Assembly: GCA_014904985.1 (NCBI GenBank)
Contig: MU129066.1
Span: 67,472 to 131,471 of the forward strand
From: Hydnum rufescens UP504
Taxonomy: Eukaryota > Basidiomycota > Agaricomycetes > Cantharellales > Hydnaceae
Direction: 5' to 3'
Length of the DNA stretch: 64,000 nucleotides
How positions within the stretch are numbered: position 1 is the first letter of the stretch; each line of letters starts with the position of its first letter. Positions 14,601 to 62,924 of this stretch are shown here, piece after piece. A program made the translations under genes and the position numbers. Below the pieces are notes generated by a model. That model was not told the origin of the DNA. It ran no database searches and saw nothing but the letters and a program-made list of their open reading frames with translations.

Positions 14601-14623
14601 TTCAGTGTCCAGTTTAATTTATA

Positions 14624-36665: not shown

Positions 36666-36879
36666 CTAACAAAACTGGTGGTCCTTACAGGGAAGTGGTT
36701 TTACCATTCTGACATAGGATTCTAGTCAAACTGGATACTCTAATCAACAATAACTCTACCAACTTCAATTTCAATCTACTTACAAAATGTGACCCAACAC
36801 ACCCACAAATTACTCTTCAGACTCAGAGTCTGAGAATCCCAACACAACCAACATATGTTTTCAACCCATTCCTCAAGGT

Positions 36880-37803: not shown

Positions 37804-38042
37804 AAACCTGATAAGATCAAACATCACTATTCAGAAAAGACATCATCAGGTGAAATGTCATTGGAAAACAGAAGTCAAGTGACCCTTGAGTAGAACAACT
37901 CACAGAAGATGTTAGGTGACTGACTCTTCAGCTTGAGACACATGACAAATCCCTAGGGTCTGCTCAAAAATTTGGCAAAAATGCGGCAGACACCAGGGGA
38001 TCTGATGACAAAGTAGACCAACTGGCAGAAGAAGTAAGGTGA

Positions 38043-39191: not shown

Positions 39192-39575
39192 CTAATAGTC
39201 AAGGTTGGAGCAGCCAAGCAAGTCTCAGCAATGATAGACACTGGATCTGAAATCTGTTTAATTTCCAGGCACATACAGGAAGCACTAGGCTTGCCCTTAG
39301 ATCCTGCAGGAGCAGCCTGGGGAACTAAAGGAATAAATGGAGTCACTGAAACCCTGCATGGATGCTGCAGAAAGGTTCCTATTGAGATAGGTGGTCTTAG
39401 GTTTGACCATGCCTTCTTTATCAAGAAAGCTGGTTTAGGCAATGACTATGACCTACTCATGGGACAACCTTGGCTGAAGGCTGTGGGAGCAGAGATTCTA
39501 TTTGATGGAAGTGAGGATTCAGGACCTATGAAAATTCAATTTTTGAGAATGGGAACAAACTTGGAAACTCAGTAA
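39192..39575 (+). pseudogene. Aspartic protease domain of the gypsy element
   Basis: The active-site motif AMIDTGSEICLIS is followed by LPLDPAGAAWGTKGINGV, GGLRFDHAFFI and YDLLMGQPWLKAVGAEILF, the standard retropepsin pattern (DTGS/A ... ILGxPWL). In the element it would act as a dimer cutting Gag-Pol. Confidence 0.85.
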
Positions 39576-40716: not shown

Positions 40717-41530
40717 TTGGACAAAATGAAAAAGCTATTTCCTTCACAGACAATGAATGTGGTCAATTCTAAAAGCGATTATTTTCCATATTACATAATG
40801 GAGACAGTGCCACACATACCTTGGCACTTACCTCCAATCCCCATTCCCAAAGCTGTCAAACCAGACCTAATTGAAATGCTCAAATCCCAAGTAAAGGCTG
40901 GCACCCTTGAACCCTCTTGATCCTCCTATCACTCTCAAGTATTTGTAGTTGCCAAACCTAAAGGTGGTTGGTGAGTTGTCCATGATCTTCAGCCCCTCAA
41001 TGCAGTCTCAATCCAAGATTCAATGTTACCACCAAATGTTCATGAGTTTGCTGAATCATTTGTGGGATATTCAGTCTATGGTGTAATTGATCTCTTCTCA
41101 GGCTACCACCAAAGAGCCTTACACTGGGATTCAAGACCTTTGACTGCATGTCAGACTGAAACTGGAAACATGCAACTCACATCACTTCCTATGGGCTATA
41201 CCAACTCAATGCAAGAGTACCAACAAACAACTGTCCATACAGCATCCCACATGATCCCAGATTGTGCTGGTGTTTTTGTGGATGACATTGGACTAAAAGG
41301 ACCAAAAATGCGGTACAATGACAAGCCAATACCGAAAACCCTGTAATATGACAATTCATCTGGGAGTATGCCCACACCTTGAATGAAATGCTTGCAACAT
41401 TCATAGAGGTAGGATGTACTGCAGCTGGAAAGAAACTCGTCTTAGCCACTCCAATGGTACACATAGTGGGAAACGTCTGCTCACTAGAAGGCTGAAGACC
41501 TCATCATGAAATTGTAACTAAGGTTTTAAA
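40717..41530 (+). pseudogene. Reverse transcriptase domain of the gypsy element
   Basis: In order: HIPWHLPPIPIPKAVKPDLI, SYHSQVFVVAKPKGGW*VVH (stop where R is expected), DLQPLNAVSIQDSMLPPNV, GVIDLFSGYHQRAL (catalytic Asp region), TACQTETGNMQLTSLPMGYT, and FVDDIGLKGPK (paired catalytic Asp). A frameshift follows near 41346, and the frame then continues with IWEYAHTLNEMLATFIEVG and VHIVGNVCSLEG*RPHHEI. The domain is complete in outline but not translatable. Confidence 0.85.
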
Positions 41531-42164
41531 CTGGCCTAGACCCCAAAGCCTTACTGATGTCTGAGCCTTTCTTGGGACAGCTGGTGTGGCTAGGAACTGG
41601 GTCTGGCAGTTTGCTAAAATTGCAAAACCATTGACAAGGCTTACAAAGATACCAGCAAGTGAATTTCAGTGGACTGAAGAAGCAGAGGAAGCTATGGGAA
41701 TCCTTAAACAAGCCATTACTATCATACCTGCTTTAAAGACACTGGATATAACATTAGCTAAGGTACCTTGGCAGGAAGAACATGACTCTGACCTAGGACT
41801 GGTCACAATTGCTGTTGATAGTTCACAGACAGCAGTTGGATATGTCATGTACCAAACCCTTGAAGATGGAAGACATCCACTGTTATATGGATCCATAACC
41901 TGGAATGATGTTGAAAGCTGCTATTCCCAGCCAAAAATTGAATTGTATGGCCTATTTCGAGCATTAAAAGCACTCAGATATGACCTATGGGGAATTCACT
42001 TCAGAGTAGAGGTGGATGCTAAGTTTCTGAAAGAAATGATCAATACTCCAAGCCTACCCAATGCTGCTATGACTAGATGGGTCTCCTACATACAGCTGTT
42101 TGATTTTGAACTTCATCATGTCCCTGCTGAATGCCATGCTGGACCTGATGGTCTATCTCGGTGA
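41531..42164 (+). pseudogene. RNase H and connection domain of the gypsy element
   Basis: LTDV*AFLGTAGVARNWVWQ begins the connection, with FAKIAKPLTRLTK and EFQWTEEAEEAM. The RNase H-like part has VTIAVDSSQTAVGYVMYQ, the acidic region SQPKIELYGLFRALKAL, DLWGIHFRVEVDAKFL and the C-terminal FELHHVPAECHAGPDGLSR, followed by a TGA. It is a good match to the gypsy RNase H1 pattern. Confidence 0.85.
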
Positions 42165-44062
42165 AGACATACATCTGAAGATTCTTCAAATAGTGAGGAT
42201 GAACTAGAAGCAGATGAGAGCAGTCAATTCATATCAGGAATGAACCCCAAGGAGCTTGAGGAGTACACACCCTTCCAACTTTCCACCAAAGATAACAAAT
42301 TCCTCTCTACAACCCAACTCCAACTTGAACCTGATGAAATACCCAATGCAATCCATCACCTCAAAACCTCAAGAGAATTCTATTCCCATGATGATGCCAA
42401 TGACACCCTCTGGATCACAGCCGCATTTTCAGAAAATCAAGTGACCCAAGAAGTACAAGCATATCTGGGTCAAAGAAATGAAAATGAAAATGCAAATTCA
42501 GACTCAGATTCTGAGGACATCCTGGATCATCAACACAAGCAAAAAGACAAGGATAGTGACACCTATTGGGACCAGATTGAACAGTACCTTAACACTCTAA
42601 AGGTCCCAAAAGGAATCACTAACTGAAAGTCATTTATCCAAACAACATGCCAATACTTCCTATATGATGACTGAATCTGGAGATGTCACCATGGCCTACC
42701 CCAACTTGTTATACGGGATCCTGAGAGACGAATAGAGCTCATGAAGGAAGCCCATGATAACTCAGGCCATAGAGGGTGAGATCCTACCTACAAGAAACTT
42801 GTTGATTCTTACTTCTGGCCTAATATGATGATAGATGTGGCTACCTATTGCAGAACATGCAGGGAGTGCCAGCTAAGATCATCATACAGGCCAAAAGTAC
42901 AGTTGAGACCCACACATGTGCCCACAATCCTGCAGAAGTTCAATATAGATGTAGTAGACATGAGTCTGCCATCTAATGGCTTCAAATACATTGTAGATGC
43001 ATGTGATGACTTAACTGGATGGATTGAAGCACAGATGCTCAAGAAAAAAGGGCAGACCTAGTAGCTGAATTTGTTCTACCAAGACATCATATGTTGCTTT
43101 GGATGCATACCACAAATAACCTCAGATAATGGAGGTGAATTTGAAGGTGCATTTGAGATTCTAATGAAAAAGTATGGAATACCCTTGGTAAAGGCCTCAC
43201 CCTATCACCCCCAAGGTAATGGAATGATAGAACATGGCCATTGCACTTGGATTAATTCCATCTGGAGACTTTGTGAATGTAAGAAACATCATTGGAGTCA
43301 GTACTTCTATGCTGCTTTGTGGGCTGACAGAGTCACCACAAAGAGAACAACAGGTTCTCTCCCTATTTCTTATTGTATGGCAAAGCTCCTTTGTTCCCTT
43401 TTCATATCTCAGACAAATCATGGCAAATGATTGACTGGCATAAGGTCAAAACAACAACAGACTTATTAGCCATGAGGACTAAACAGTTTGTGGCCTTGAA
43501 CAGAGACAGACAGCTTGCTGCAAAATCCAATGAAGAATCCAGAGTTAGAGCAGCTCAGGACTTTGCAAGAAGACATGCAAAAACTCTTACCACAGACCCA
43601 TATTCACCTGGTACTCTAGTGCTAGTCTACCAAGCAAAATTTGATGTCAATAATAAATTTGCTGGTAACAAGTATAGAGACAGGTGGGCTGGACCATTCA
43701 GAGTAAGAAAATGCTCATCTTCAGGTGCCTATAAACTTGAGGAACTGGATGGGACACCTATGAAGGGATCTATTGCTGCTAATAGAGTCAAGGTATTCTT
43801 CAGAAGGACTGGGGAACCTAACCTTCTCCAAGCCCAGGATCTATCAGACAGTGACTCAGACTCAGAGGAATTAGAAATTGACCCCTTAATTGATAAGACC
43901 ATACCTTCTGGATCCACAGCATATTTCTGTAACCCCAACCTCCTAACCTCATACAGGAGACCACCTCCTGATTGGCAATCAGTGTGGGACTGTTGGCAGG
44001 AGTGGAAACGAGCCCTAGGTAATGGTAACAATCAGAACATGGAAGATCCAATCCACAATTAG
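42165..44062 (+). pseudogene. Integrase of the gypsy element
   Basis: The N-terminal zinc region HDNSGHRG ... CRTCRECQL gives the HHCC motif (42740-42880). The core has KFNIDVVDMSLPSNGFKYIV (first catalytic Asp), TSDNGGEF (second) and KASPYHPQGNGMIEHGH (Glu). The C-terminal part (43373-44062) has YSPGTLVLVYQAKFD, YRDRWAGPFRVRKCSSSGAY and ELDGTPMKGSIAANRVKVFF, then an acidic tail. A TGA sits inside HRG*DPTYKKL, and a frameshift near 43060 and another near 43430 break the frame. Confidence 0.85.
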
Positions 44063-45211
44063 AGTGACTCACATTTCTACAAAATGGCTGAGGCCAATTT
44101 CAAAAGTCTGTGCCACATTACACCCAATATTGGCACATATGGCCCAGCAATCAACCCAAAGTCCATCAGAACTCAAACTGGGATTAAATTCATACCAATG
44201 AATTTCCACACCTCCTTTATTCAAGGATGTGCGACTTCAAGTGTTATGAGTTTTCTATCCAGAGCATCTATGTAACCCTAAGTCACCAATCCCTATTCCC
44301 AAATCCTCCAAAAGACAGATCCCCCTACTCCATTTAAAGATTACCAGGAACTCGATTAACTGACAATGGATACTAGGACCCACCAAACATCAATCCCCAT
44401 GATTCCTGAGTGAATCTAAATCCAATACCACAGAGACTGAAAGTATGCCCAATGACCAAAGGATTACTACACCAAGAAAAATAAATCAATACTGACACTG
44501 AAAAACAAATGAAAACATTACCATTGAGCCTGATACATCACCTGCACTTGGCCAAACTACCTTAGTCTCATGTTACAATGACCGCAACTCACTGGTTGTT
44601 TCATCTGACTAGATCACTCACCAACTGTGCTGAGGCATCACCATATGAACACCGAAAGAGTCACTAACGCTATAATGACTTGATTGTAACACAAATCATG
44701 CTGCCACCTGTAGAAAGGCATGTTGGAATCCCAGGTGCCATTCATACCACCAAGGTGCTGGCAAAAGCATCTTTGTTGCAATTCAAAACCCAGAAAAACT
44801 ACACCTACTGTTGTCTTAAGCCCACCCTACCTACACTTCTCTGCATTGGGGGCCATACATTCAATCTCTCCCTTTGATAGGTGATCTTTGCCGATTTGGG
44901 ATTGCAACAAAAGATGGCTCGATAGTCATGATGTGCAGTACCAAATGAAATCTCAATCTGAGGGATGCCATGCTGCACTGAAGTCCATGCCCCATAGCTT
45001 GTGCAGGTTGTTGTCCTTTGTTCAAGTGCATTCGCCCTTGCACATTCAGATTAGCACAACAGGATGGTTGTCCCAGTACACAGGAAGCACCTCGATGTAT
45101 TCGGATATAGTAGCTGAATATGGAGAAATGCATGTACTATGTTCTGCTTTGATAAGTATGGTGAAAACTCCACCAGTTGACTTGATACCAGTGGAGAGAG
45201 CAGCACAATGG
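44063..45211. other. Sequence between the gypsy integrase and the second 1.67-kb repeat
   Basis: There is no recognisable gene or 3' LTR. From about 45002 to 45200 it matches 47787-47990 in direct orientation. The shared minus-strand frame reads ESTGG(I/V)FTILI(K/E)AEHS in both, a hint of an old coding region now decayed. Confidence 0.4.
45002..45200. repeat. 200-bp direct repeat, left member
   Basis: Related to 47787-47990 (roughly 85% by eye). The second 1.67-kb element sits immediately to its right. Confidence 0.65.
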
Positions 45212-46912
45212 TATAGAAGAAGGGTTGGGAGCTCCAATGACTGTCAAATAAAAATCTGGTTCAGCCAGTGTGTAGATGGGAGACTGTATTTCTGTTGTTA
45301 TTCATTGGGTTGGTTTGCTTCAATGGTTGATCACACTCTGCAAGATGTGTATGGTGTTCAGTGGAGAATATAATGGGATATGGACTAGCTGTAGTCAATG
45401 ATATATTGTTTGGGATGCTTGTAGAAAGGCTTATACATAGGGGATGCTTGTAGAAAGGCTTATATGTAGGGGATGCTTGTAGAAAGGCTTATACATTGTG
45501 TGGGGTGCTTATAGAAAGGCTTATATGTCTGGGATGCTTGTGGAAAGGCTTATATGTCGTTTGTGTTGTGTTGGTCTGTTTACTGATATTTGTGTATTCT
45601 TTTTTACATTCTCCTGGTCAAAATGTGGATATCTGTGGGTTATAGACTGGTCAGTGCTTGGTTAGTCTTGTTAGTATGTTTCTTTCTTCTTTCTTCAAAA
45701 CCTGATATGTATTTCGTTATGCTTACTTTTCCTTGGATGTCCAGCAACTCTAACCTTAGGTCCTGCAACTATCCTTGGCTTTAGTGATTCGCATAGAGGG
45801 CTACCAGTGGCTTTGTCTCAACAACCTTGAAGATGACTTAGCTCCAGATGGCTTATAGATAGACTGTTCTTTAGAGGCAAGCAGAAAAGTTGACAGTGGT
45901 TGACAGTGATGATTTCCAGAGAGGAGATGATGGGGGGATACAGGAAATCTACCAGCTTTTATACCTTTCTGAAGGTGGCTGTGTTTAAGAAATATGACTC
46001 CCTCATGGGTGAGTCATATGTGAGTCATAGGTGAGAACAAAAGAAAAATAACAAGATGATGTCATAATGCGGTCATAGCTGAGTCATGCATAAGGAGAAC
46101 AAAAGGAATCATGAGGGGTGATGTCATAGTGATGTCATTCATAAAGAGAACAAAAGGAATCATGAGGGGGGGTGATGTCACCAATTTGTTGAGCATGTGG
46201 AATGCTTGGAGCATGTGGTCACTGACCATGTGGAGCATTCTGGAGGCGAAATGAAAGGATATCTCTGGGTTTTGGAGATTAATTTGGGCATAGTCCAATG
46301 GTTAAGGTGTTTTGTTGTGGGTTGATAATGGGGACAAGTGCATGGGATGGGATTCGATGCAGAAACAGCAGTTTGCATCCGTAGTAGACGTTCTTGGTAT
46401 CATTAGATGCATATTTTTAACAGCTTTCTGGGCGCGGTGGTTCCGAGCAGATCCAGTGTAAACTGACAGGGAAATTTGTTTTTTACTGATGGGTGTTGAT
46501 TCTGATAGTAATATTGTTCTGTAGAGTTCATTTTTGATTTGTTCTTTGTGCACTCAGTACCATTGGATGCGGATTTTTTATATATTTCTAGGAGCGGTTG
46601 TTCTGAGAGGATTGAATGCGAACTGATGGAGAAATTCATTTTTTACTGGAAATCCTGGATTTTGATAGTAAAATTGGCCTGGGGAGTGCAGTTTTGGTCC
46701 GTTTGACTTGTGTTTGGTACCGTTAGAAAGGTGTAAATCGTAGCTTTCTAAGAGTTATATGGGAGTACCTCTCTGATTAAAACTGATGGAGTTATAGAAT
46801 GAATTCGATTTCTGCACATAGCTGTAATTAATTTCATAATTGGTCATGTGATCATCCAATGGCTGGAAGTGGTGTGATTCCGCATTTTCTGATACTGGAT
46901 GTTTTTATCTTC
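45212..46912 (+). mobile_element. 1.7-kb dispersed repeat, copy 2, with 8-bp target duplication
   Basis: The same repeat as 28571-30241. CACAATGG stands directly before (45204-45211) and directly after (46913-46920), a perfect 8-bp target-site duplication that fixes both ends: TATAGAAG at the left, TTATCTTC at the right. There is no terminal inverted repeat, poly-A tail or protein domain. It carries the longer version of the GGGATGCTTGTAGAAAGGCT tandem repeat and the tRNA-like stretch. Confidence 0.8.
46287..46360 (+). promoter_or_regulatory. tRNA-like pol III internal promoter, copy 2
   Basis: TAGTCCAATGGTTAAGG (46291-46307) and GGGATTCGATGC (about 46349-46360). This box A is even closer to a tRNA consensus than that of copy 1. 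Confidence 0.5.
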
Positions 46913-49900
46913 CACAATGGACTTCTTGCGCCTCTCCAAATCTATTGCTGAGTGTGATGGCGACTTGAGCAGCAGCATTAGTAGGTGGCCACCTCACCCA
47001 AGTTGATAGACTTGTCAGGTCCCAAACAGTGCCAGCAAGTCAGACAAGGGTCTGATAATATGAAGAATCTGAGTTGACTCACCAACTGAAATGGTCTCCT
47101 GCAGATAGGACTCTGTCATTTGCTTGCATGTGTTCCAAAGGGTTCATGGTACCCTTAAGCATCAAAGTCAATGCCTGACAGCTTGAATTCACAATGCAGA
47201 TTGTGGTCCTTAGTTCATACTGGTCCACCTTTGCATACTCAGATCAGCGCATACACCAGTAGTCCAGATAAGTAGTCAGAGCATGTCATTAACATGCAAA
47301 AATCACACATACTATATTCGATTTTGAGGAATCCTCTCCCTATGCCCCAGTCCCAACGACGCAAGAATCATGCAGAAGTCCTCTACAGTGACTGCACACT
47401 ATAGTCTGTGCTCATAACCCAGCAATCCATCAGCCATGTCCCCAAATCTCCTCAACTGACTTGCTTTGTGATGCCCATGGTTCCAATCAGCTACAGTCAG
47501 ACTACAGGGATACAGAAAACAATATTGATGATGCCACTTCACAGCTGAGGGCTGCTAACACTCAGGTTCTTGTCAAATCCAGGTTCATTCTAACAATGAC
47601 CTTTACCATCACCATACATGTCACTATAGTTCTCACCCAGGCCACATATATTGTGCCTGTGTAGCAAATTCACTGCAAGTTCGGCTGGTCAGTATATAAA
47701 TCAGGATTGATAGACATACCAAACATACATGTCATAGACATCTTGTGTCTTGTGCAGCAGGATATTGTTCCAGCTTAAGAGCATGGGTTGTTGTCCTTCA
47801 TTCAAGTGAATTCGTCCTTGCATGTTCAGATTAGCACACCAGGACCGTTGTCCCAGTACACAGAAAATGCTTCAAGGTGCTTCAATAATTAACCACTGGA
47901 CAGTAGCTGAATAATGAAAAATATACATACTGTGTTCCGCTTCAATAAGTATGGTGAAGATTCCACCAGTTGACTCAATACCAGTGGAGGAGGCATTGAC
48001 GGTGGGAGCAATTGAAGACCCAGAGTTAGTTTCTGAGGTGACTCTGCCCCATTTGTCATGGGTGGACATTCATGCCCCCTTACCCTTTTGAAAGGATGAG
48101 GTGGGAGAGCTTTTGAAAGATTCATTAGACAAACCAATAGCACCAAGGGACTGTCAATGATCATTTACTGTTCGATGCATAGAGCGTCTTCCTGATGAAT
48201 CCATGGTGAAAGACCTGGAAAGATTGTTAGTGGCTAGATTGTATTTGTTGTGAAACTATAAGAGAATGATGATCACCAGGGCCACAATCACTCGAGACAT
48301 GACTGCAGTCCACTTACCAGCCTCAAAAACTGAACTGGTATCCATCTCGGCGACCTATAACCCGCAACATGAACATCCAAAATATGTTCTAGGGAGACAA
48401 AAATCTACACACCTCAAGATTGAAACTAATGAAAGTAACTAACCGCTCAAGGTGAAAGGCTTTGTGGACCTGGTGATAAAGAGTAACTGTTGACAGTAAA
48501 TGTCAAAGTCTGCATGTACATTGACCACAAGATGATCCTCACCATCACCCTCACCTTTGCTTTCTTCATGTCTGAACTGTGAGGAGGAGAATGTGCACCC
48601 TAGGATGAGGAGTGGGAGTGGTGAGCATGCTGAGCATGAAAAACCTGAATGATCGCATCAAGGTGTTACTTCCCACATTGGGCTCACTCAGCTTTCGCTT
48701 CCTCTGTCTTCTTCAGGAACTGAATAAAACTCATATAAGTCCTATGATCCTATGACTCTTCTTGATGAATGAAGCCACACACCTTGACAGCATCCTTCCA
48801 TGAAACCAAGATGGCTTTCAGCATTGCTTTAACCACTGTCAGCATATGCTTTTCTTTGGCTATCCTTTGTTTGTCATCAGCACGAGCAGCCTTCTCCCAA
48901 TGGGTGGTGATGATATGCACCACATACCTCAATTCATCCTCAGCCTTCTGGCCTCTCAACTTGCTTTAGACATGGTGGTTACACTCTCCCATGGTGGTTC
49001 CAGGTTAGAAGGACCAGTCCCTTAACCCAATAGGGCAGAGAATTCATTGTCAATTCACCAGCTTGCCCTAGTCTCGATACATGGTGACTCACTGAATTTT
49101 GAGAATATGTATGGTCAAACCAGATACCAAAGTTGAGGCCAGCAAACCTACAGCTGACCCTTCCAAAGTGGCACATCCAACTTGTGCAAGTGTTACAAAG
49201 GTAACTAGACATGAAGATGGAGACAATGGAGTCCTATAGAGCAGTCCCCTGTTCGAAGCTGTCCCTGATCTCCTTGTGTACATGTTGTAGTATCATGTGA
49301 TCTATGAGCAGTCCAGTGTGTCATTTTGGGCAGAACATGCAGGATGAAGTAGCTTGATACCAACCTCCTTATTAAAGACTTTGATTGAATCTCTTGCATG
49401 AGAATTCCCTTCGCTTACCAATATAGTCAAGGAGAGCATCAGAGAATTGCTTGACAAGTAGCAACAATCAAACAAATGGCACACTTATTATTCAACTTGT
49501 TAACCACACAGTGATTGCATCTAAGCTTGTTATCGCCATATTGGAGAGTATTAGCATCGCAATACAAATCTGTGGACGCGAGCCTTTGGGTTACCAAAGA
49601 TGATGAAGAGACCCTGGCAAGAGCACTGGGAATGAGACCAAGTGCCACTTCCTTTCATCTAGTCATCCGAGGCATCTAACAGAACCCTAGCAACAAGATC
49701 CAAAGCCCACCAAGTTTCAGTTTTGTTGTGAAGGGTAGCAGCAAGGTGCTGTTGCTTTCAAGCCATGCAAGATCCTGTGCCATTGTTTTCTGGAGCCAGT
49801 GCTCTTCTATTAGGTCCACACAGTTCACTTGGGCAGTACTGCGCTACCAAATGCAGTATGTGTGAGGATGATCAATGTGGACAGAACATAAAAATGCACC

Positions 49901-50839
49901 ATCTAGCAGATCCACCCATCTGAAAATAATGTGGAGGAAACCCAGCTGGGCTCTTCAAAATCAGCAAACCTGAACTTGAACCACACTTGATTGAAAATTC
50001 AGCATAGAAGCAAGCAGTTGCAAATACATATATGACTCACATCTTGTAAAGAGGAAACTCTTGCACAAAGTGAGGCAAGCATCAAATTCATCTGACAAAA
50101 GCAATTGCTATTGGCAACAACCGAATGCTTTCTAGAACAACAAGCAAAAGATATCAGGGTTCCACCTTATCAAGACCAAAGAAGAAAACACCATGCTTAC
50201 CAGGGGTTTTCCTCAGTAACCCTTCTGCAAACTGGTAAGCCCCCTTGGCAACATGAAAGGTGCAGGACCAAGGAAATTCTGGCATCTCCACTGCCTACTG
50301 CCATGGGTCATCAAAATTTGTCAACATGAAAAGCTGTGACAGTGAAACTTGAGTGCGACTGTAGATTCCTGCAGGCAACTGGAAGACTCTGTGAGCTGGA
50401 AATTGCCAAGCTTTGCCAGAATGAATTGCCACACCATCACCTCATGGCATAGTCAATGTTCTGAGGGCACCCAATGAGCCCAGTGAGTTCAGCATACCTG
50501 ACTTGACCAAAATCACACAAACTATACAAGACCTCCTAATCCCCAGAAACCATAGATGACTAAGGAAGCTCAGGTGACGATCCATCCTTTCTCCACAGTT
50601 TTCACCCCTGGAAACAGTCCGTGAGGGCAATACTGACCCAGTAGCTGACTTGGGTGCCTTTTTGGAATGATGCTGTGTGGGATCCTTGGATCACCCTGGC
50701 TGACTTTAAAAGAGGAACCTGATGACACCTGTGGTCCGCCCTAAACCTCTCTTTCCTTCTTTCCTTCACCTGTTATACACTCCATCCTCCATTTCTTCCT
50801 CTTTTTCCATCCATTCTTTCACCCTTCTTCATATCCACT
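46913..50839. other. Decayed mobile-associated DNA, no gene named
   Basis: Many stops in all frames. Short coding-like pieces include a helical, charged minus-strand frame at 48959-48750 (DELRYVVHIITTHWEKAARA, KAMLKAILVSWKDAVKVCGF) and the block 47787-47990 repeated at 45002. No transposase, RT or host domain was recognised. CpG is rare and TGA frequent, as in its neighbours. Confidence 0.4.
47787..47990. repeat. 200-bp direct repeat, right member
   Basis: Partner of 45002-45200. The shared minus-strand peptide ESTGGIFTILIEAEHS suggests a former coding exon. Confidence 0.65.
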
Positions 50840-51190
50840 ATGCCTGATGTGTCCTGCAACCATGAGTCGATAACCAGTTTATCACAAATGGACTGTGGAG
50901 ACATGACAGATTTGGATTCTGGCAATTCATATTTTGCAAAAACTATGTCTCCCCTTCCTCCAGACACCAATCCTCTCATATATACTGACAACCTGTTGAA
51001 CAAAAACCAATTCCTGAAGCCTGAGTCCACACTTAGACTCTTGCTGTTTAACCATGGCAGCACTCTGGAATCCAAAACTGATGATCGGCAAACCATGCAT
51101 CAAACCATTTCACCTCCACTACATCCTCCCTCTCCTGACCAAAAACATCCACTCCAACAGGCTGGTCAGTCAAATTGGGGACCTAATTAG
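50840..51190 (+). CDS. Hypothetical ORF at the left border of the palindromic element
   Basis: A 116-residue frame from an ATG (MPDVSCNHESITSLSQMDCG) with no known motif. Its last codons (NWGPN, stop) fall in the GGGGACCTAATTAGG sequence that opens the element at 51177, so the reading frame may have been cut short by that insertion. No continuation was found beyond 55270. Confidence 0.35.
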   Translation: MPDVSCNHESITSLSQMDCGDMTDLDSGNSYFAKTMSPLPPDTNPLIYTDNLLNKNQFLKPESTLRLLLFNHGSTLESKTDDRQTMHQTISPPLHPPSPDQKHPLQQAGQSNWGPN

Positions 51191-51637
51191 GTGCCATTTT
51201 CGGGGCAGAAAATGGTACCTAATAGGTCCCCAGACAGTATGGCCAAAATATGGCCATTCTGATTCATTTCAGCTAATCCATGGCTGTGCTAGATTATTTA
51301 TTTATTTACTATTATTTGTTCACTATTTATTATTATTATTATATACATATTATCCCCCCCCCCCTGGGGTTTGCCACTGCAGGGGGGGATGGTTCATGCA
51401 GGCCACACACCTGCATATACCCACCACACCCACCACAGCAGGTGGGGTTCATATGCCCCAGTTGGGGCCAGTTCCATTTGGCACTCCCTTGAGGGTGTGG
51501 GTTTTTGTTCATGGGGGCTCATTCATGGTTTTCGTTTGCAGTGCATCATTCAGTGGGTTTGTGGTTGGGGGTTTACACAGGTTCTGGTTCAGGATCTGGA
51601 GAAATTAAAAATGAAACATTAGTTTAACAGTAATGCA

Positions 51638-51673
51638 GCACAAAAAGAGCAGCTTATGCTGCTCTTTTTGTGC
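51638..51673 (-). repeat. Hairpin 1 in intron 51709-51596 (minus)
   Basis: Stem GCACAAAAAGAGCAGC (16 bp, perfect) with loop TTAT. The intron has donor GTATGT, branch AAACTAATG and acceptor TCTCCAG on the minus strand. Confidence 0.85.
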
Positions 51674-51973
51674 CACAAGAATAAAAAATAAAATGAAACA
51701 GAAACATACCTTGCAGTACCCCATGCCTGCTGCAGTGGGTGTGGGGTGCTGGGGCCCTGTACTCTGGCTCATATGGTGGGTTGTATGGGTCCTCCCTGCA
51801 GTTTTCATTTGTGGGGGGTTGTTTGTGGGTTTCATTCATGGGTTTCATTCATGGGTTTCATTTGCGGGTTTCATTTGCAGTGTGTCGTTCTGTGGGTTTG
51901 TGGTTGGGGGTTCATGTGGGTTCTGGCCAGGAGCTAGAGAAATAATAATAGGTTAGTTGAAAATGAATGCAAT

Positions 51974-52006
51974 GCAAAAAGAGCAGCATACACTACTCTT
52001 TTTGCA
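51974..52006 (-). repeat. Hairpin 2 in a minus-strand intron
   Basis: Stem GCAAAAAGAGCAG against CTACTCTTTTTGC. The single non-Watson-Crick position becomes U-G wobble in minus-strand RNA, the strand that has the donor GTAAGT, branch AACTAACC and acceptor TTCTCTAG. Confidence 0.8.
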
Positions 52007-52569
52007 CTACAAGAATAAGAAATACAAAAAATGGAACTTACTTTGTAGTACCCCACACCCACTGCAGCAGGTATGGGGGCTGTGTACTCCTGCTCATACA
52101 TATGGTGGTTTGGACAGGTCCTCCCTGCAGTCATCATTTGTGGGGGGTTGTTCCCAGTTTTCATTCGTGGGGGGTTCATTCATGGGTTTTGCTCACAGCT
52201 GTCATTTGTGGTTTTCATTTGGCAGGTTTGTAGTCAGGGGGTTTGCACAGGATCAAGTCTAAAATCCAGAGAAATAGAAAATACATTAGTTAGAAATAAA
52301 TGCATGCAAAAAATTAAAATAAAAAAAAACTTAGCTCATAGCACCCCACACCTGCTGCAGTGGGGGTGGGGTACACAGTCTTGCACAGGGCCTGTGCCCT
52401 CAGGCTCATATATAGTCTTGTGTGGCAGTTTGTGTGGGTACTCCCTGTGCCCCATCATTCAAGTGTCGACAGGGGGGGGGGGTTATGGGGGTTTTCACAT
52501 CAGTATTCATTCACGCAGGAGGTGAGGACCTGTAATAGAAGCATATATGTTAGTTAAAAATTAAACACT

Positions 52570-52604
52570 GCACAAAAAGAGCAGCTTTTGCTGCTCTTTT
52601 TGCG
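52570..52604 (-). repeat. Hairpin 3 in a minus-strand intron
   Basis: Stem with AAAAAGAGCAGC and loop TTTT. Donor GTGAGT, branch AACTAACAT and acceptor ATTACAG on the minus strand. The neighbouring unit at 52260-52350 has similar intron edges but no hairpin, and its donor appears changed (GAGCTAAGT). Confidence 0.8.
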
Positions 52605-52895
52605 TGGGTGTATCTACTGGACTCACCTTATACAGGTACCACACCTGCCATGGCGGATATGGTACCTGGGGTACTCATTTGGCATGGTTGTGTTACTGTT
52701 GGGCACATTACCATATGTCATGTCTTCATTTGGCATGTCCTCATTGGGCATGTTGCCATCTGTCACATCATTTGGCATGTCTTCATTTGGCGCATTGCTG
52801 TTTGGGCCCTCATTTTGCAGGTTTTCATCATGCCTTGGATCCCAGGCCTCAATATAGAAAAATACAAAATGTGTTAGTATAAAGATTCAAAAGAG

Positions 52896-52930
52896 TGCAA
52901 AAAGAGCAGCTTTTGCTGCTCTTTTTGTGC
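52896..52930 (-). repeat. Hairpin 4 in a minus-strand intron
   Basis: Stem AAAAAGAGCAGC with loop TTTT; donor GTGAGT after GGTCATAAA, branch TACTAACAC, acceptor TATTGAG. This is the innermost intron of the left arm. Confidence 0.85.
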
Positions 52931-53329
52931 CATTGTATCTACTAGTAGAAAAACTCACTTTATGACCACACACCTGTGGTGGCGGGTGTGTGGTCACATG
53001 CTTGCCTTTCCAGGCAGTTGTTTGTTGTGGTTTTGGAGATGAGAAGTAAGATGTGAAATTCAATGCCAGCAATTGCCAATACTCAAGAAGTGCCCAAGTG
53101 CTGATGCTTACAAGTACAATCCAGATTAATAGCAAGCATGTAGACATGGAATATAAAATATATAATAAATATTTGTTTAAAAATGTGAAGAAGAGGATGA
53201 TAATGAGCCAGAGCTCAATAAGGGACAATATGCCTCATTGCAAAGTGGATTGGGTCACTTCCACACATCAGAATTGGGCCAAATTTAAATATTGTGATGA
53301 TATATACACACCCTATATGGGCAACTAAT

Positions 53330-53440
53330 TATATTGGATGATTCTGGCATTTTTCAATTTTTCATGCCTTCAATTCCCTAAATAGGGAATTGAAGGCATG
53401 AAAAATTGAAAAATGCCAGAATTGTCCAATATAATTAGTT
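53330..53440. repeat. Centre of the 4-kb palindrome
   Basis: Nearly perfect inverted repeat with TTCCCTA-AA-TAGGGAA at the middle (53374-53389). Inverted similarity continues outward on both sides: the peptides read inward at 53053-53328 (plus) and 53758-53435 (minus) are almost the same (both contain TSTIQINSKHVDMEYKIYNK). Confidence 0.9.
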
Positions 53441-53873
53441 GCCCATATAGGGTGTATATATATCATCACTATATTTAAATTTGGGCCAATTATGATGTGT
53501 GGAAGTGACCCAATCCACTTTGCAATGAGGCATATCATCCCTTATTGAGCTCTGGCTCATTATCATCCTCTTCTTCACATTTTTAAACAAATATTTATTA
53601 TATATTTTATATTCCATGTCTACATGCTTGCTATTAATCTGGATTGTACTTGTAAGTGTCAGCACTTGGGCACTTCTTGAGTATCGGCAATTGCCGGCAT
53701 TGAATTTTGCAAGTATGCAGCCACACACCCAGCGACAGAAAGGCGAGCACATGACCATGACACAACAGCAACAGTAGCAGCAATAGAGGCAGCCTCAGCA
53801 CATGACCATGACCACACACCCACTGATGCAGGTGTGTGGTCATAAGGTAAATTTTGTCTCAGTAGATACAATA

Positions 53874-53909
53874 GTGCAAAAAGAGTAGCACAAGCTACTC
53901 TTTTTGTGC
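53874..53909 (+). repeat. Hairpin 5 in a plus-strand intron
   Basis: Stem AAAAAGAGTAGC against GCTACTCTTTTT. It differs from the common GAGCAGC/GCTGCTC by a change on each side that keeps pairing. Donor GTAAAT after GGTCATAAG, branch TACTAACAT, acceptor GTCTAAG. Confidence 0.85.
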
Positions 53910-54123
53910 CACTTTAAACTCTTATACTAACATAGCTTTTATTATTTTACATTATGGTCTAAGGCCTGAGACCAAAACCCACTGCACAATGAGGGCCTGA
54001 ATGGCAAGAGTCAAACCAAAAGAAACAATGGACCACCCAATGGGTGGCCCCAGGAACCACACCCACTGTGGTGGTGTGTGGTACTATTTAAAGTGAGTTC
54101 CCCCCCCCCCAATAGATACCATG

Positions 54124-54159
54124 GCACAAAAGAGCAGCAAAAGCTGCTCTTTTTTGTGC
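54124..54159 (+). repeat. Hairpin 6 in a plus-strand intron
   Basis: Stem GCACAAAAGAGCAGC with loop AAAA; one unpaired T on the right side. Donor GTGAGT followed by a C tract, branch ATTAACAC, acceptor GCTTTAG. Confidence 0.85.
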
Positions 54160-54377
54160 AGGTTTTAAAAATTTTATTAACACTTTTATTTACTGCTTTA
54201 GGCCAAGCTGTCCCACCCACGAATGACACCCTGCATATGACCATGTGAATGGCCACATGTGAACAAGCAACAATGCCCACAGGAAGCCACAAAGAAGAGC
54301 AGGAAAACAGGGGCCACACACCCACTGCAGCAGGTGTGTGGCAATATAAGGTATGTAATTTTTTTTTAATAGCTCCA

Positions 54378-54419
54378 GTTGCACAAAAAGAGCAGCAGTC
54401 ACTGCTCTTTTTGTGCAAC
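54378..54419 (+). repeat. Hairpin 7 in a plus-strand intron
   Basis: The longest stem, GTTGCACAAAAAGAGCAG (18 bp, perfect), with loop CAGTCA. Donor GTATGT, branch TAACTAATG, acceptor TTCTCAG. The GTT/AAC extension is unique to this copy. Confidence 0.85.
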
Positions 54420-54796
54420 CTTTGAATTTTAACTAATGTCTTAGTTTTCTCAGGCCAAGCTGTCCCAGCCCAATGTGCAAACCCATGCACTCAGGAGCCC
54501 AAACCCACCCACCCACCAGTATGCCAAAGAAACCCCCCCCCAAACAATGAGGCCTGATCAGTGAGGACCCCAGCGGCAATGTGTGAACAGTGAACATGCC
54601 AAATGAAACCCAACCAAACAACCCAGCCAAATGACACCCAGCCAAACAAAACCATGCCAAACCGCACAATGCCATACCCAATGAAATGACACCAAACAAA
54701 AATGTGAGAGGTGGCCATGCGCCACCTGAGTGACCATGCGAACCACACCCACTGCGGCAGGTGTGTTATAATATTAGGTACATCTAATCCCACTGG

Positions 54797-54830
54797 TGCC
54801 AAAAGAGCAGCAGAAGCTGCTCTTTTGGCA
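54797..54830 (+). repeat. Hairpin 8 in a plus-strand intron
   Basis: Stem TGCCAAAAGAGCAGC (15 bp, perfect) with loop AGAA. The outer GCC/GGC pair replaces GCAC/GTGC on both sides together. Donor GTACAT, branch AACTAATG, acceptor GTTCTAG. Confidence 0.85.
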
Positions 54831-55034
54831 TCTCTGTTTTCTTTTTTTTTAACTAATGTATTATTATTCATTGTTCTAGGTCCCTTCCATACATGAAATG
54901 ACAATGCAACACACCAAGGAACACCCCCCAGATGAAACTCAGGACTGAGAATGCACAATGCAGGACCACAGGGACCCCAGACAAACCACACCTGCTTTGG
55001 TGGATGTGATAATTCTAAGGTAAATACAACCACA

Positions 55035-55064
55035 CAAAAGGAGCAGCATACGCTGCTCCTTTTG
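55035..55064 (+). repeat. Hairpin 9 in a plus-strand intron
   Basis: Stem CAAAAGGAGCAGC against GCTGCTCCTTTTG with loop ATAC. The A-to-G change on the left is matched by T-to-C on the right. Donor GTAAAT, branch TACTAATG, acceptor ATTCTAG. Confidence 0.85.
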
Positions 55065-55270
55065 CATGGCTTTGCTTGTTTTTTGTTTTTTTTTACTAAT
55101 GTATTATTTATTATTCTAGGTTGTCATCTGGACTCACAACCCCCATGACCCCACCGAACAAATATGGGGGAATGGCAGCCCACCCACCTCAGACAGCTAT
55201 AAGTCTGGTCCTTCTTAGGTAGCAAATCCCAGACATGTTTTGGTACCTAACTAGGTACTCGAGACTATGG

Positions 55271-57714: not shown

Positions 57715-58305
57715 TCATACATCATTGAATTTTGGATACTGGGGACAATCTCTTGTCAAGTCCAGTTTGATATGCCAAGCAGAGGGATCTTTGGAGAAAC
57801 CAAACATTTCATCTGCAACCAGATTGGTGGTGAGAGTGCTCCCAAAAGCTGCACTAGCCATCCAGCATATGTGATGAATGACACTGTGAACTGGCCCTTC
57901 AGTAGGCCACATGGTGACAACAAAACCAGCACCAAAGGCACAATGTTTATGAGCACACATAAGGAGCTCCATGCAGTGAAGAGGAAGGTCAATGGAAGTT
58001 GGTGGTAATGAAGCAAGCTTTTGGATCAACCACTCTGTATCAAACTCAACACATTGAAGTTGATGCAACCTGTTGAGCTTTGACACTGCAGGGCCAATTA
58101 CAGGAGGGAAAGTGTCATAGCTGAGGAAGATATTGCCATAGGAAGCCCTGTCAGCATGTTCCTTCAAGTATCGGGGTGCCAGGTTCAAAAGGTCTTCAAG
58201 TTCCTTCCTAGTATGAGCATGAGCATAAGCTTGATCCACATATTCCAGATCCTTGTGACTTGTGAACCGATCGGTGTAAGCAGGATTGTTATTGAACCAA
58301 TCCAA
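57715..58305 (-). CDS. Hypothetical ORF fragment, 196 residues
   Basis: An open frame with MDWFNNNPAYTDRFTSHKDL, LEDLLNLAPRYLKEHADRA, LQCVEFDTEWLIQKLASLPP and ADEMFGFSKDPSAWHIKLDL. It has balanced amino-acid use and a conserved look but no domain I know. The genes at 55.5 and 57.7 kb share orientation and could belong to one mobile unit. The start codon is not certain. Confidence 0.45.
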   Translation of the reverse strand: MDWFNNNPAYTDRFTSHKDLEYVDQAYAHAHTRKELEDLLNLAPRYLKEHADRASYGNIFLSYDTFPPVIGPAVSKLNRLHQLQCVEFDTEWLIQKLASLPPTSIDLPLHCMELLMCAHKHCAFGAGFVVTMWPTEGPVHSVIHHICWMASAAFGSTLTTNLVADEMFGFSKDPSAWHIKLDLTRDCPQYPKFNDV

Positions 58306-58929
58306 CTACTGTCCACGAGGTTGAGCCGGGGACAAAAGAGGGGACCACAGATCTAATCTGGTTGTTTAGGTTCGAGTGGAGGAAGGTCTTTTGGACAGGG
58401 GGAATTGCAGTGAGCCAACAAAGCCCAAGCAATTAAGTGAGAATGTGTATTTCAGTCAAATTACCACACCCTAAGAATCCCTTCTTGAGACCTTAGTCAA
58501 AGTGTAGTTGGAATTCGCTTTTTGTAGTGAGAAATCACCCAGGAACCAGCAGCTGTTCAAGGAGCTTCAAACTGGAGGGAGGGGGAGAACTAATGAATTT
58601 GTGTGCTAGCTGCACCTAATATACAATCCAGACTTCGACTCAATAGAAAGTGAAAAAGTCGGACTTAAGGGACACACAGAGAAAAAAAAATCAAGTTAAA
58701 ATATTCAAAACTGATGGAGATATTCCAATTTCAAGATAAAAGGGGAGATTGACACATTACATGCTATTCCTCCTTCAAACATGGACAAGTTCCCTTAAGG
58801 AAAAGTGGAATAGGTCTCCCTGAGGGTCTTCTCCATCGGACATAAGAGGGCTGGAAGTAATTCGCTATTTTGAATGGTGGAGCAAGGGGGAGTCATGGGG
58901 AGGGGGTTGTCTTGTGAAAAATGGAGTTC
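58306..58929. other. No gene seen
   Basis: AT-rich sequence with simple A runs and no open frame of note. Confidence 0.5.
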
Positions 58930-59205
58930 ACGTCCGCTCGTTTTTCCCTTGGTACCGTTCGATGCGCATTTTTAACAGCTCTCAGGGTGTGGTACTTGCG
59001 AACAAATCAGATAAGAATTGGCTTCGAAAATCAAGAAATACTCCTTCAGAGTATGAATCATGGCAAGATATTGTTACAGGGACCGCATTTTTGATCCGTT
59101 CATTTTGTGTTTGGTACCGTTCGATAGGTACGATTCGTATCTTTCTGGGCGCGGTCGTTTCGAGTCGATCCGATCAAAAATGATGGAGAAATTCGAAAAA
59201 TACTC
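58930..59205 (+). repeat. Two modules related to the 3' half of the 1.67-kb repeat
   Basis: GGTACCGTTCGAT then TTTAACAGCTCTCAGGGTG (58952-58990), and GGTACCGTTCGATAGG then TTTCTGGGCGCGGTCGTTTC (59115-59162) followed by ATGATGGAGAAATTCGA. The same order of words occurs three times in each copy of the 1.67-kb repeat. These modules keep more CpG than the copies at 45-47 kb. Confidence 0.7.
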
Positions 59206-59736
59206 CTTCAGAGCAGTGCAGCCCCTATCTGGATCATGTGACAAATCCGCGAGTCCAGAATTGGAACTAGGCCTGGTCCGCGTCGTTACATAATCACAAT
59301 TCATCGCCCTTAAGGCAATAGGATAGCTTGGAAGAGCAGGCAAGTCATCCAGTCTTGAGGAAAGATGGCAAGTTGAATTGCCTTGTCCAAGGAAAATGGA
59401 CTTGAAGTAGGGCATAAACTGCCCCTTTTTGATGAGGACTGTTGAAGTCCGACGGATAGTCAATAAATTGACTGGTGGACATGGTAAAGGAATGAGGCGA
59501 TATTATGGGTTGGAAAGGGGTAGGAATCCAATTGATTTCTTGAATAAACAAATGGCGATAAAATTAAATGAACGCGGTGTCATATAATTGATTCGTTCGT
59601 AGGGAAAATGGACCTCGGATGAGGATTCTATGGTGTAGGGATTTATCCCTCCAACATTGGATGGTGCACTTGGTTCATCAATTGTGTTGACTCCAACCTC
59701 TGCGCCATGAGCCCTGCGCCACCCTTGTAAAACATC
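59206..59736. other. No gene recognised
   Basis: A minus-strand frame (59463-59074) is open for 129 residues (FMPYFKSIFLGQGNSTCHLS) but overlaps the repeat modules and has no motif. Confidence 0.35.
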
Positions 59737-60721: not shown

Positions 60722-61138
60722 TTAGTCTGAGCTCCCCCCCCCCATGTCCTCTAGCTCCAAAAAGTAAGAATTGGGTGACAGAGAGACTATAAGGGAGGGG
60801 AAACAAAGGGGCTCTTTCTGAGCAATTGGAGCCAGTGTAGATGGGGGAAGTGCAGACTCACATAAAAAGGATTCTTGTGGACTGGACTCAGGAGTGGGCT
60901 GGTGAGGTGTGGGCTCAGGGGTGGGCTGGAAAGGTGTGGGCTTGGGGGAGGGCTCATGAGGTGCGGGCTTGTGAGTGGGCTTGTGAGGTGCGGGCTCAGG
61001 GGTGGGCTTGCAAGGTGTGGGCTTGGGGGTGGGCTCATGAGGTGTGGGCTCTGGAGTGGGCTTGTGAGGTGTGGGCTTGGGGGTGGGCTTGTGAGGCATG
61101 GGCTCGTGAGTGGGCTGGGAAGTGGGCTCTTGAGGCAT
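60722..61138 (-). repeat. Pro/Thr/His-rich coding minisatellite
   Basis: About 15 degenerate units of 18 bp (GGTGTGGGCTTGGGGGTG-like on the plus strand). The minus frame reads PTPHKPTPEPTPHEPTPKP-like repeats; the plus frames read Trp/Gly/Cys-rich strings and are artefacts. It follows the 593-residue ORF but in another frame. Confidence 0.75.
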
Positions 61139-61142
61139 GGGC

Positions 61143-62924
61143 TCAGGAGGAGTGGACTCCAGGGGTGTGAGTCCAGGTGAAGTGATGTGAGTCAGTAAGG
61201 TTGAAGCAGGCTGGGGGGGACAATGGGGGGAGGCAGTTGGGGGCTTCTGGTGGTGGAGGTTGAGAACTTGAAGACAACCCTAACCCAGAGCCACTGGCAA
61301 CCTCAGCGGCCTTGGCAGTTTTGTAGGCAGTGAAGTGTCTGTGATGTTTCGCTTCATTCCTTGCTGCATTATCCCTGCCAGGAACTCTCCACTCTGCTAT
61401 GATACATGCATCAAACTCACTTAACTTCTTCTTCTTCTTCCCAATGGCTCCATGCAGCCTATGTTTCACCTCATCTAGAGCAAACATATTGCCATCCTTT
61501 TCTCGCTGCATTAAGTCGCAAGCATCTCTTGCAGCAACAGCCATCCACTCATCCACTGCAACTTTTGCTTGCCTTAGCTTGTTGAACCCAGCCTTGCGCC
61601 ATGCCAGATAATCTTCATACAGCTCACCTCTGATTGACTGGACATAATCAGGTAGCCTTTCTTCTTCTTCTTCTTCCTCATCATCATCTTCTCCTCCATT
61701 CCAGAATGCATCCATTTGCTCTACAGTGGGTGGAGGCTCTGCAAACAACCTGGGCCACAAAGGGGGATGCATATCCCCCCTGAATGTGTCTGGTGGTGGT
61801 GATGGTGAGGAGGTGACTGGAGAACCGAGAAGAGAATCCTGCAATGAGTGTGATGATGTGCGTGAAGGTGAGGGTGATGGCAGAGGTGAATGTGAACCCA
61901 GACGTGATGAATAAAGTGGAGGGGGAGTGAAGGGCCCAGCACCAAATATTTGATGAAGAGAAGTATACATGTGAGAGGAAGGGGATGTTGGACCATTGGA
62001 GAAAAGCACATTGAAAACTGTATCTTCCATACTCATGCCAAGAGGTACCCCAGGATAGGAGGTTGGAGTGATAAACCAAGGAGAGGGGCAATCATGCTCT
62101 ACGATGAGCTGCACGCAAAGATCATGATAGGCTATGTTGTTGCCTTTCTTCTCCAGAGTAGCCTGCAGCTCCTCTCGACTGAAGTGATCACCCAACTGTT
62201 GAGTGGCCTTGACATCCATTGGGCAATCTCCAAACCAAATGCCCCACAATGGTAATCCATGCGATACGAAATTCATGAGCCAGGGCCCCATTGCTGAATG
62301 CAGATACATCATTCCAATGAGGTTGTCATTGACCCCAAAATGAGGATGAGGGTGGTGAGGCATGGAACAAATATGATCAATACACATGTGCATAATCATA
62401 TTGGCCAAAGCACCATATTTGTATGTGGCATGCAGAAAATTGTTGACTAATTGGCCCATAGCCTCGCAATTATTCATCATAGATGACAACAGATTGACAG
62501 TAAACAGGGAGTTGGCCAGGATTTGGGGCCCCACGAGGTGGACAATATTAGACATTTGTTTGTCAAGGTCCATCTTTTGGGCAACCAACCACCAGTTCTT
62601 GTACCAAGTATGCCTATCACTGATAAAACCCTCGAAATGTTGTTGACAGGAGTCGGTCAGTTGGACACCATCAGAAACCTGCTCAACCTCCACATGAGCC
62701 ATGACTGGATCATCAAGAGTATGTGAGATGTAGCCAAGGTACAGCATTTGTGACGAATACATGGTGGGAATCCATGTGTAATCTAATGGATAAAGGGCAC
62801 CCACATCCCAGTTTGCAAACCATGAGCAAGAGATAGAAGACTGATCCTGGTCATAAATGATGGAGTCTGTGTTGGGAGGACACTGCTGTGTGTATTGGAA
62901 AGGACAACAACTATTTGAAAACAA
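61143..62924 (-). CDS. Hypothetical 593-residue protein, transposon-associated type
   Basis: The longest intact frame of the CpG-poor half. The N-terminal half is folded-looking: WFANWDVGALYPLDYTWIP, QQHFEGFISDRHTWYKNWWL, VNNFLHATYKYGALANMIMH, ICSMPHHPHPHFGVNDNLIG. The middle is Ser/Pro-rich with an acidic run (EDDDEEEEEEERLPDY). The C-terminal region is helical and basic with YLAWRKAGFNKLRQAKVAVD, RHFTAYKTAKAAEVASG. No domain recognised. Its size, isolation from host genes and neighbours suggest a gene family carried by or living among mobile elements. The start is taken from the frame start and may be preceded by an exon at 63.0-63.5 kb. Confidence 0.5.
   Translation of the reverse strand: MFSNSCCPFQYTQQCPPNTDSIIYDQDQSSISCSWFANWDVGALYPLDYTWIPTMYSSQMLYLGYISHTLDDPVMAHVEVEQVSDGVQLTDSCQQHFEGFISDRHTWYKNWWLVAQKMDLDKQMSNIVHLVGPQILANSLFTVNLLSSMMNNCEAMGQLVNNFLHATYKYGALANMIMHMCIDHICSMPHHPHPHFGVNDNLIGMMYLHSAMGPWLMNFVSHGLPLWGIWFGDCPMDVKATQQLGDHFSREELQATLEKKGNNIAYHDLCVQLIVEHDCPSPWFITPTSYPGVPLGMSMEDTVFNVLFSNGPTSPSSHMYTSLHQIFGAGPFTPPPLYSSRLGSHSPLPSPSPSRTSSHSLQDSLLGSPVTSSPSPPPDTFRGDMHPPLWPRLFAEPPPTVEQMDAFWNGGEDDDEEEEEEERLPDYVQSIRGELYEDYLAWRKAGFNKLRQAKVAVDEWMAVAARDACDLMQREKDGNMFALDEVKHRLHGAIGKKKKKLSEFDACIIAEWRVPGRDNAARNEAKHHRHFTAYKTAKAAEVASGSGLGLSSSSQPPPPEAPNCLPPLSPPACFNLTDSHHFTWTHTPGVHSS

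Follow-up and report, generated by a model that had tools for sequence, protein, structure and literature searches.

The question raised by this locus is what kind of sequence strings together nine hairpin-bearing, intron-like units in two arms that point away from each other. We analyzed this array within a window of 64,000 nucleotides of the Hydnum rufescens UP504 genome (63.2 Mb in total), comprising bases 67472-131471 of contig 158, and find that it is one copy of a genome-wide family. Taking the evidence together, we consider it likely that the array is a copy of a mobile palindromic DNA element of ~4.6 kb that is present in hundreds of copies, gives no indication of coding for protein, is probably mobilized in trans by KDZ transposases, and has arms that are predicted to be transcribed outward from the palindrome and spliced.

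The copy in the window contains nine hairpins of one family (CAAAAAGAGCAGC/GCTGCTCTTTTTG) between 51158 and ~55188, four of them in minus orientation left of position 53381 and five in plus orientation right of it, divergent about the centre. Their spacing is 236-598 bp within the arms and 979 bp across the centre, which is formed by an inverted repeat of 2 x 325 nt with 96% complementarity and a 2-nt spacer (all positions including the hairpin starts in Table 1). These measurements bear out what a model had proposed from the letters of the window (hereafter the original prediction) regarding nine hairpins of one family, their recurrence every 240-600 bp, and the strand switch at 53381. The span of 51177..55270 given there needs correction at both sides, with the left end lying farther out at 51158 and homology to eight compared loci ending at 55188 on the right. 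No right terminus of this copy was found within the window, and its observed/expected CpG ratio is 0.12.

Copies, ends, and target sites

The original prediction had proposed a genome search, and queries with the centre and the hairpin retrieved hundreds of dispersed copies. The centre alone gave 116 matches at 40 places (counted by eye, with 40 of 921 candidates scored), 38 of which feature both arms at >270 nt and two a short second arm. Pattern searches found 361 palindromic centres (≤3 mismatches; control 0), which fall on many contigs among the first 50 places listed, as well as 6031 hairpin sites (≤2 mismatches; control 0), for which forward and reverse counts are equal since the pattern is palindromic. 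They also found 354 element ends of one type and 332 of the CAGGCTGGTCAGTCA type (≤3 mismatches, control 0) and 797 sites of the block CAATYGCCGRYRTTGAATYT that two subfamilies have in common near the centre (≤2 mismatches, control 0). Taking ~260 bp for each unit, hairpin units by themselves would account for near 2.5% of the genome. Whole copies at loci L013, L014, L015, and L017 measure 4542-4727 bp (~4.6 kb; L015 holds a 1.4-kb gap), the number of hairpin units varies between copies, and the CpG ratio ranges from 0.03 to 1.01 among 21 copies (0.97 for L015 without N). One further locus, L063 on contig 27 (53220-54320), is a 1-kb near-perfect fold-back (arms of 458 + 45 nt, 98%) with two ends of the same type that has exonic hairpins (see below) and no intronic ones. 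It is a derivative similar to miniature inverted-repeat transposable elements, and a recheck of its flanks found no target duplication.

Copies end with either 5'-CAGGCTGGTCAGTCA or 5'-CACCTTGGTCAGTCA, each with a subterminal hairpin, and at conserved copy boundaries the termini read CA..TG, with short and imperfect terminal inverted repeats (TIRs). A third type of terminus (..ATCTAGTTAGA..TTGGCTGACCAGGCTG) lies beside hairpin-intron arrays at L016, L018, L020, L023, and L010, which suggests three or more subfamilies of ends. Among 14 two-ended insertions, which were picked by their CA..TG ends and are hence no independent test of this motif, eight are flanked by a 7-8 bp target duplication at ≤1 mismatch (5 exact), compared to 0/182 mispaired flanks. 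For the copy on contig 39, the joined flanks correspond base for base to an empty site inside a Gypsy-like retrotransposon of the window (Table 1). This site holds a single copy of the 7-bp target duplication and sits in the open reading frame 43373-44062 of the retrotransposon, while the other seven joined flanks gave no exact empty site among the DNA examined.

It is because of the dispersed copies, the target duplications, and the exact empty site that we regard the element as a DNA transposon and not as an assembly artefact, a satellite, or a gene. Together with the TIR-like ends, the same findings bear out the fold-back DNA element that the original prediction had listed among its options, and, as in Foldback-type elements, long and internally repetitive inverted arms make up most of its length. 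Perfect palindromes are a known source of misassembly and the hairpin units are in tandem, but 361 centres (on many contigs among those listed), differing unit numbers, target duplications, and the exact empty site leave an assembly artefact or a satellite array with a close to negligible probability. It is also very unlikely that hairpin introns spread singly into host genes as introner-like elements and are clustered here by chance. The introns are indeed alike in layout and carry stem-loops, and the proposed origin of introners lies in non-autonomous DNA transposons, many of them with target duplications or TIRs (PMC9860276, in the portion available). However, target duplications and empty site flank the whole 4.6-kb element rather than single introns, the exons repeat along with the introns, and at the three places examined that seemed to hold isolated hairpins (L059-L061) there were further hairpins, in one case 1.1 kb from a centre. 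Introner membership, another option of the original prediction, is therefore unsupported, as a larger transposon contains these introns internally and supplies the exons on either side of them.

Probable relationship to KDZ transposons

KDZ transposases are abundant in this genome, with 150 listed matches, all over the Pfam cut-off, of 584 candidates; statements on KDZ matches below refer to those listed. A terminus related to that of the element, TGGTTGACCAGCCTG, occurs at exactly 40 genome sites, and at 18 of them a KDZ match lies 1.66-2.37 kb inside on the same strand (expected 0.0036 per site), compared to no match inside on the opposite strand and a single one beyond an end. A wider end query of 292 bp gives 9 of 39 places with a KDZ match inside. 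The ends of the element and of a KDZ-encoding element align over ~70 bp, subterminal hairpin included, and an intact KDZ-type member scores against the Pfam models KDZ and CxC1. Kyakuja families of Laccaria bicolor are described as having CA..TG ends and 7-bp target duplications and, in the available portion of that source, no TIRs (PMC12730594). Because of the related termini with KDZ matches inside, the alignment of the ends, and the Kyakuja-like CA..TG motif and 7-bp duplications, we class the element as probably a non-autonomous member of the KDZ transposons, from the Kyakuja, Dileera, or Zisupton lineage. The claim of the original prediction that the array matches no known family thus does not hold for the termini, which tie it to KDZ transposons, but it stands for the intron-array interior, of which we found no published description in the open-access literature.

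No transposase was found in the reading frames of six copies that bear arrays (L013, L014, L015, L017, L050, and L051, with the gap in L015 noted above), and nine frames that are among the longest in five such copies gave no Pfam match. An autonomous copy was sought in four end pairs that lie 8.2-9.0 kb apart, and no transposase of their own was seen; L049 contains a 5.9-kb gap, L051 an LTR (long terminal repeat), and L050 only more array, and at L052 Copia-like frames (recognized by eye) lie between two other ends. When nine open reading frames of the window were compared to Pfam, the sole match was the RNase H domain of the Gypsy-like element.

As observations on the side, many KDZ matches carry TGA stops, as would fit CpG decay, and the genome also has 90 matches to hAT dimerisation domains. 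In the window, the minus-strand stretch 30303-31109 encodes the peptide CCPACFGGT, which by eye is similar to RCPLCFGGS, a Cys motif found in the L053 KDZ frame, and is positioned just internal to the LTR of the Gypsy-like element.

Splice signals, hairpin stems, and exons

Read outward from the centre, a typical unit consists of a T-poor exon with an exonic hairpin (CCACACACC-N-GGTGTGTGG) at its end, a GTRAGT-like donor, the intronic hairpin, an ACTAAY branch site, and a YAG acceptor. Strict signals (GTRNGT + ACTAAY + YAG) are present in 137 of 205 oriented units from 21 loci, leaving out 11 of 216 hairpins of no assignable orientation, compared to 0 in antisense and 0 in each of five shuffles. 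Because the assignment of orientation used overlapping signals, we repeated the count with orientation defined only by geometry relative to the centre and found strict signals in 73/106 outward versus 1/106 inward readings. The introns are ~105 nt long (median of 189) and, once the hairpin is subtracted, ~73 nt (median over 62 young ones), with an interquartile distance of 22-25 nt from branch site to acceptor, and they show the GT-AG ends and properly spaced branch site of spliceosomal introns. The longest perfect stem before the donor has a median of 10 bp over 188 units compared to a shuffle mean of 4.8; our first donor caller sometimes places the donor inside this exonic hairpin, and its donor table is approximate. 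The splice grammar is real, and from these signals we infer that the arms may be transcribed and spliced. In the window copy, donor, branch site, and acceptor are retained in seven of the nine hairpin introns (two donors set by eye), and the acceptor AG is gone in the two introns nearest the centre, so that the complete intron that had been proposed around each hairpin is found for the former and not for the latter.

The stems of the intronic hairpins covary. Among the 205 hairpins, 188 fit a 40-base register and 163 of these are distinct; over these 163, pairing cells amount to 93.7% (mean 88.5 and highest 89.4 in 500 shuffles), a number to be read knowing that hairpins were found by requiring pairing, which favors intact ones. 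Double changes affect 11 of 16 stem pairs (shuffles: mean 7.6, highest 10), with 186 double-change cells (highest in shuffles 92). For 62 hairpins that were hand-picked from 120 of the 163, the covariation score is 0.232 compared to 0.128 (0/500), and all slid registers score far lower. Searches of L062 and L014 against Rfam gave no family at gathering level; there were 29 weak matches (E ≤ 0.5) to microRNA and small RNA models, the strongest of which (76.2 bits, cut-off 95) maps to the palindromic centre of L062 and is of a kind that any long stem could produce.

The exons are without reading-frame constraint. Across 160 exon pairs, substitutions are spread over the codon phases as 301/308/315, and a length divisible by three is seen in 303 of 1193 indels; exon lengths modulo 3 are distributed as 51/36/34, and 69 of 121 exons have no open sense frame. 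Homologous exons stand in different frames in the CpG-rich array L062. We thus rejected coding exons on account of the flat substitution phase, the indel lengths, and the mixing of frames among homologous exons. It is exceedingly improbable that the array is a protein-coding gene with expanding repeat exons that underwent head-to-head duplication. The exon-intron layout is as regular as such a gene would have it, and one spliced arm of L062 holds a 248-codon open frame that is longer than in 98.5% of shuffles; however, this frame reads homologous exons in different frames, and the substitution, indel, and open-frame counts given above all speak against it. This option of the original prediction is unsupported because the exons lack reading-frame constraint. 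We also rejected the idea that the exons have antisense targets, as comparing them to KDZ genes, the Gypsy-like element, and the flanks in the window gave 0 matches at E ≤ 1e-3.

Table 1. Positions of the element copy, its parts, and the empty site within the window
Feature	Position	Strand	Remark
Empty site of the contig 39 copy (12038-16724), in Gypsy-like retrotransposon	43476..43548	+	73/73 bases equal the joined flanks
Element copy, left terminus present, right terminus lost	51158..55188	.	Left limit kept in other copies; right limit is the end of homology
Left terminus, TIR-like 5'-CAGGCTGGTCAGTCA, outward reading TGACTGACCAGCCTG	51158..51172	-	332 genome sites
Subterminal hairpin GGGGACCTAATTAGGTGCCATTTTC...GAAAATGGTACCTAATAGGTCCCC	51177..51231	.	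Homologous hairpin in end of KDZ-encoding element
Predicted intron, hairpin 51639-51672	51596..51709	-	
Predicted intron, hairpin 51973-52006, two G-T pairs on predicted transcript strand	51934..52041	-	
Hairpin-free intron-like unit; donor GCTAAGTTT deviates slightly from consensus	52255..52335	-	Limits by eye, approximate
Predicted intron, hairpin 52573-52602	52530..52626	-	
Centre-proximal intron of left arm, hairpin 52898-52927; acceptor AG lost (TAT near 52854)	52854..52958	-	Limits by eye versus other copies
Exonic hairpin example (CACACACC..GGTGTGTG), directly upstream of donor	52964..52995	-	
Left arm of central inverted repeat; predicted outward promoter region	53056..53380	-	96% complementary to 53383-53707
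Right arm of central inverted repeat	53383..53707	+	361 palindromic centres genome-wide
Right-arm intron nearest the centre, GAGTAGC/GCTACTC-variant hairpin 53877-53906; acceptor AG lost (TAC near 53950)	53847..53950	+	Limits by eye
Predicted intron, hairpin 54125-54156	54093..54201	+	
Predicted intron, hairpin 54382-54415	54351..54453	+	
Predicted intron, hairpin 54797-54830	54778..54879	+	Donor ATTAG/GTACAT by eye; automatic donor fell in exonic hairpin
Predicted intron, hairpin 55035-55064 (GGAGCAGC/GCTGCTCC variant)	55020..55119	+	Donor TAAG/GTAAAT by eye; automatic donor fell in exonic hairpin

Around the element copy, the window stretch 50020-51538 (left flank and end of the arm) shares 96% identity with part of contig 354 (L009), in a segmental duplication that includes a copy of the element bearing an additional LTR insertion. 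The stretch 58275-59323 recurs beside palindromic elements in L010, L019, L016, L018, L011, and L022 at 65-94% identity and could represent either an outer portion of the element or a repeat that inserts along with it. The Gypsy-like LTR retrotransposon is ~18 kb long (28567-46919); its LTRs measure ~1.7 kb (28567-30250 and 45210-46919), its RNase H domain is located at 41586-42164, and pieces that resemble the LTR occur within or next to several of the examined palindromic copies. Elsewhere, two similar stretches of ~2.6 kb (11656-14384 and 17223-19754) lie 5.4-5.6 kb apart with pieces of 86-94% identity, and a tandem array with a 27-bp period (60856-61179) lies beside a minus-strand open reading frame of 593 amino acids without Pfam match. 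One host-like open reading frame is closest to Cantharellus anzutake (42% over its full length), followed among named matches by Botryobasidium (37% over half), in line with a host from the Cantharellales.

Proposed mechanism and comparison with known systems

Besides the 248-codon frame, several observations weigh against our interpretation of the element. Six of the 14 two-ended insertions have no recognisable target duplication, 22 of the 40 TGGTTGACCAGCCTG sites have no KDZ match within 3 kb among the 150 listed of 584, and no single element was seen with a KDZ gene plus an intron array. Across the same three introns in 21 aligned copies, the variability of splice-signal columns is not significantly below background (p = 0.18) and that of stem columns is only moderately lower (p = 0.003), and a table of pairwise divergence that favors stems and signals is biased by the choice of features in the reference copy. 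On the predicted transcript strand, wobble pairs versus A-C mismatches number 10:2 in young (p = 0.04) and 15:13 in old copies; setting aside possible CpG decay, these ratios become 5:2 and 7:4 and are not significant, so that they do not establish an RNA role of the stem. For the 62 young introns, predictions show, contrary to expectation, more pairing at the 5' splice site than in the rest of the intron (unpaired 0.36 versus 0.58), which argues against a simple idea of the hairpin helping splicing, and branch site (0.63) and acceptor (0.83) are predicted to be a little more open. As the splice-signal columns do not stand out significantly from background, copies seem to decay freely after insertion, and we read this, citing also the CpG range among copies, as constraint that acts on active lineages and is followed by free decay.

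The pairing data also bear on an alternative that we regard as unlikely, namely that the hairpin-intron units are DNA-level repeats serving as subterminal binding or structural sites for a transposase, much as Foldback-like elements bind theirs through long repetitive arms, and that their splice-like signals are a relic of a captured gene fragment. In line with this idea, the stems are near-perfect Watson-Crick palindromes (2577/2665 pairs in the 205 hairpins, which were selected at ≥10/13 pairs) with no clear wobble excess outside CpG sites, a subterminal hairpin is found at the element ends too, and the long repetitive inverted arms resemble those of Galileo, whose long TIRs are described with multiple transposase-binding sites (PMC3688188, in the portion available). 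However, a binding-site role leaves unexplained why donor, branch site, and acceptor occur jointly, with tight spacing and outward orientation, in diverged units.

In the mechanism that we favor for this mobile palindromic element, KDZ-superfamily transposases would act on it in trans, as suggested by the related termini, and the central inverted repeat, with the block CAATYGCCGRYRTTGAATYT common to two subfamilies near the centre, would serve as a bidirectional promoter from which the arms are transcribed outward and then spliced. The arms may have grown by tandem duplication of the ~260-bp intron-exon unit, and exchange of ends could have given rise to same-end pairs such as L063. We propose that strong introns would ensure efficient splicing of the outward transcripts, with the hairpin folding ~30-35 nt out of each intron and leaving a span of ~73 nt, and that efficient splicing might spare the element RNA from SCANR-type silencing. 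SCANR is described to target inefficiently spliced transposon RNAs in Cryptococcus neoformans (PMC5851062, in the portion available), and a role of the element in silencing escape is speculation. A more specific version, which we advance tentatively and hold to be doubtful, is that the element represents a class of transposon with a cargo made up entirely of two mirror-image, multi-intron non-coding RNA genes that share a palindromic promoter, are transcribed outward and spliced at the hairpin introns, and act on splicing-coupled silencing as a shield or decoy for the element itself and for the KDZ elements that would move it.

In the usual view, a transposon either avoids introns as a burden or itself becomes one by insertion. 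The present element of hundreds of copies consists mostly of introns and non-coding exons, and a splice grammar is common to its otherwise diverged units. If the arms are transcribed and spliced, they would provide thousands of natural replicates for the effect of a hairpin between donor and branch site on splicing as well as a system for asking whether splicing aids the escape of transposons from silencing; if they are not, the retention of splice signals in a transposon would need explaining. The element further adds a non-autonomous layer to the KDZ expansions of mushroom genomes, of which we found no earlier report.

Compared to known systems, the element is a variant of a familiar type of transposon, with an interior still to be explained and, as far as we found, an architecture unreported in the open-access literature. 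Pack-MULE-like transposons carry captured pieces of genes and are similar in being non-autonomous elements that bear exon-intron sequence, but here no source gene was found, and the units are tandemly amplified, mirrored, and non-coding. With the KDZ-encoding elements of its own genome the element shares a related terminus and subterminal hairpin, and with Kyakuja (KDZ) transposons of Agaricomycotina it shares CA..TG termini and target duplications (7-bp there, 7-8 bp here). It differs from Kyakuja in its long inverted arms of hairpin-intron units, in that no transposase gene was found in it, and in its short imperfect TIRs, as Kyakuja-1_LB and Kyakuja-2_LB are said to be without TIRs in the available portion of the source (PMC12730594). 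Like the Foldback-type elements Drosophila FB, Galileo, and Tetris, it consists almost entirely of long inverted repeats that contain tandem subrepeats, but those elements are from animal hosts, Galileo belongs to the P superfamily, and the accounts available do not describe their subrepeats as introns. Introners, including the introner-like elements of fungi, likewise tie a non-autonomous transposon to multiplied, similar spliceosomal introns (PMC9860276 and PMC4457414, each in the portion available); an introner, however, is a single intron put into a gene, whereas the present transposon harbors whole arrays of introns together with non-coding exons.

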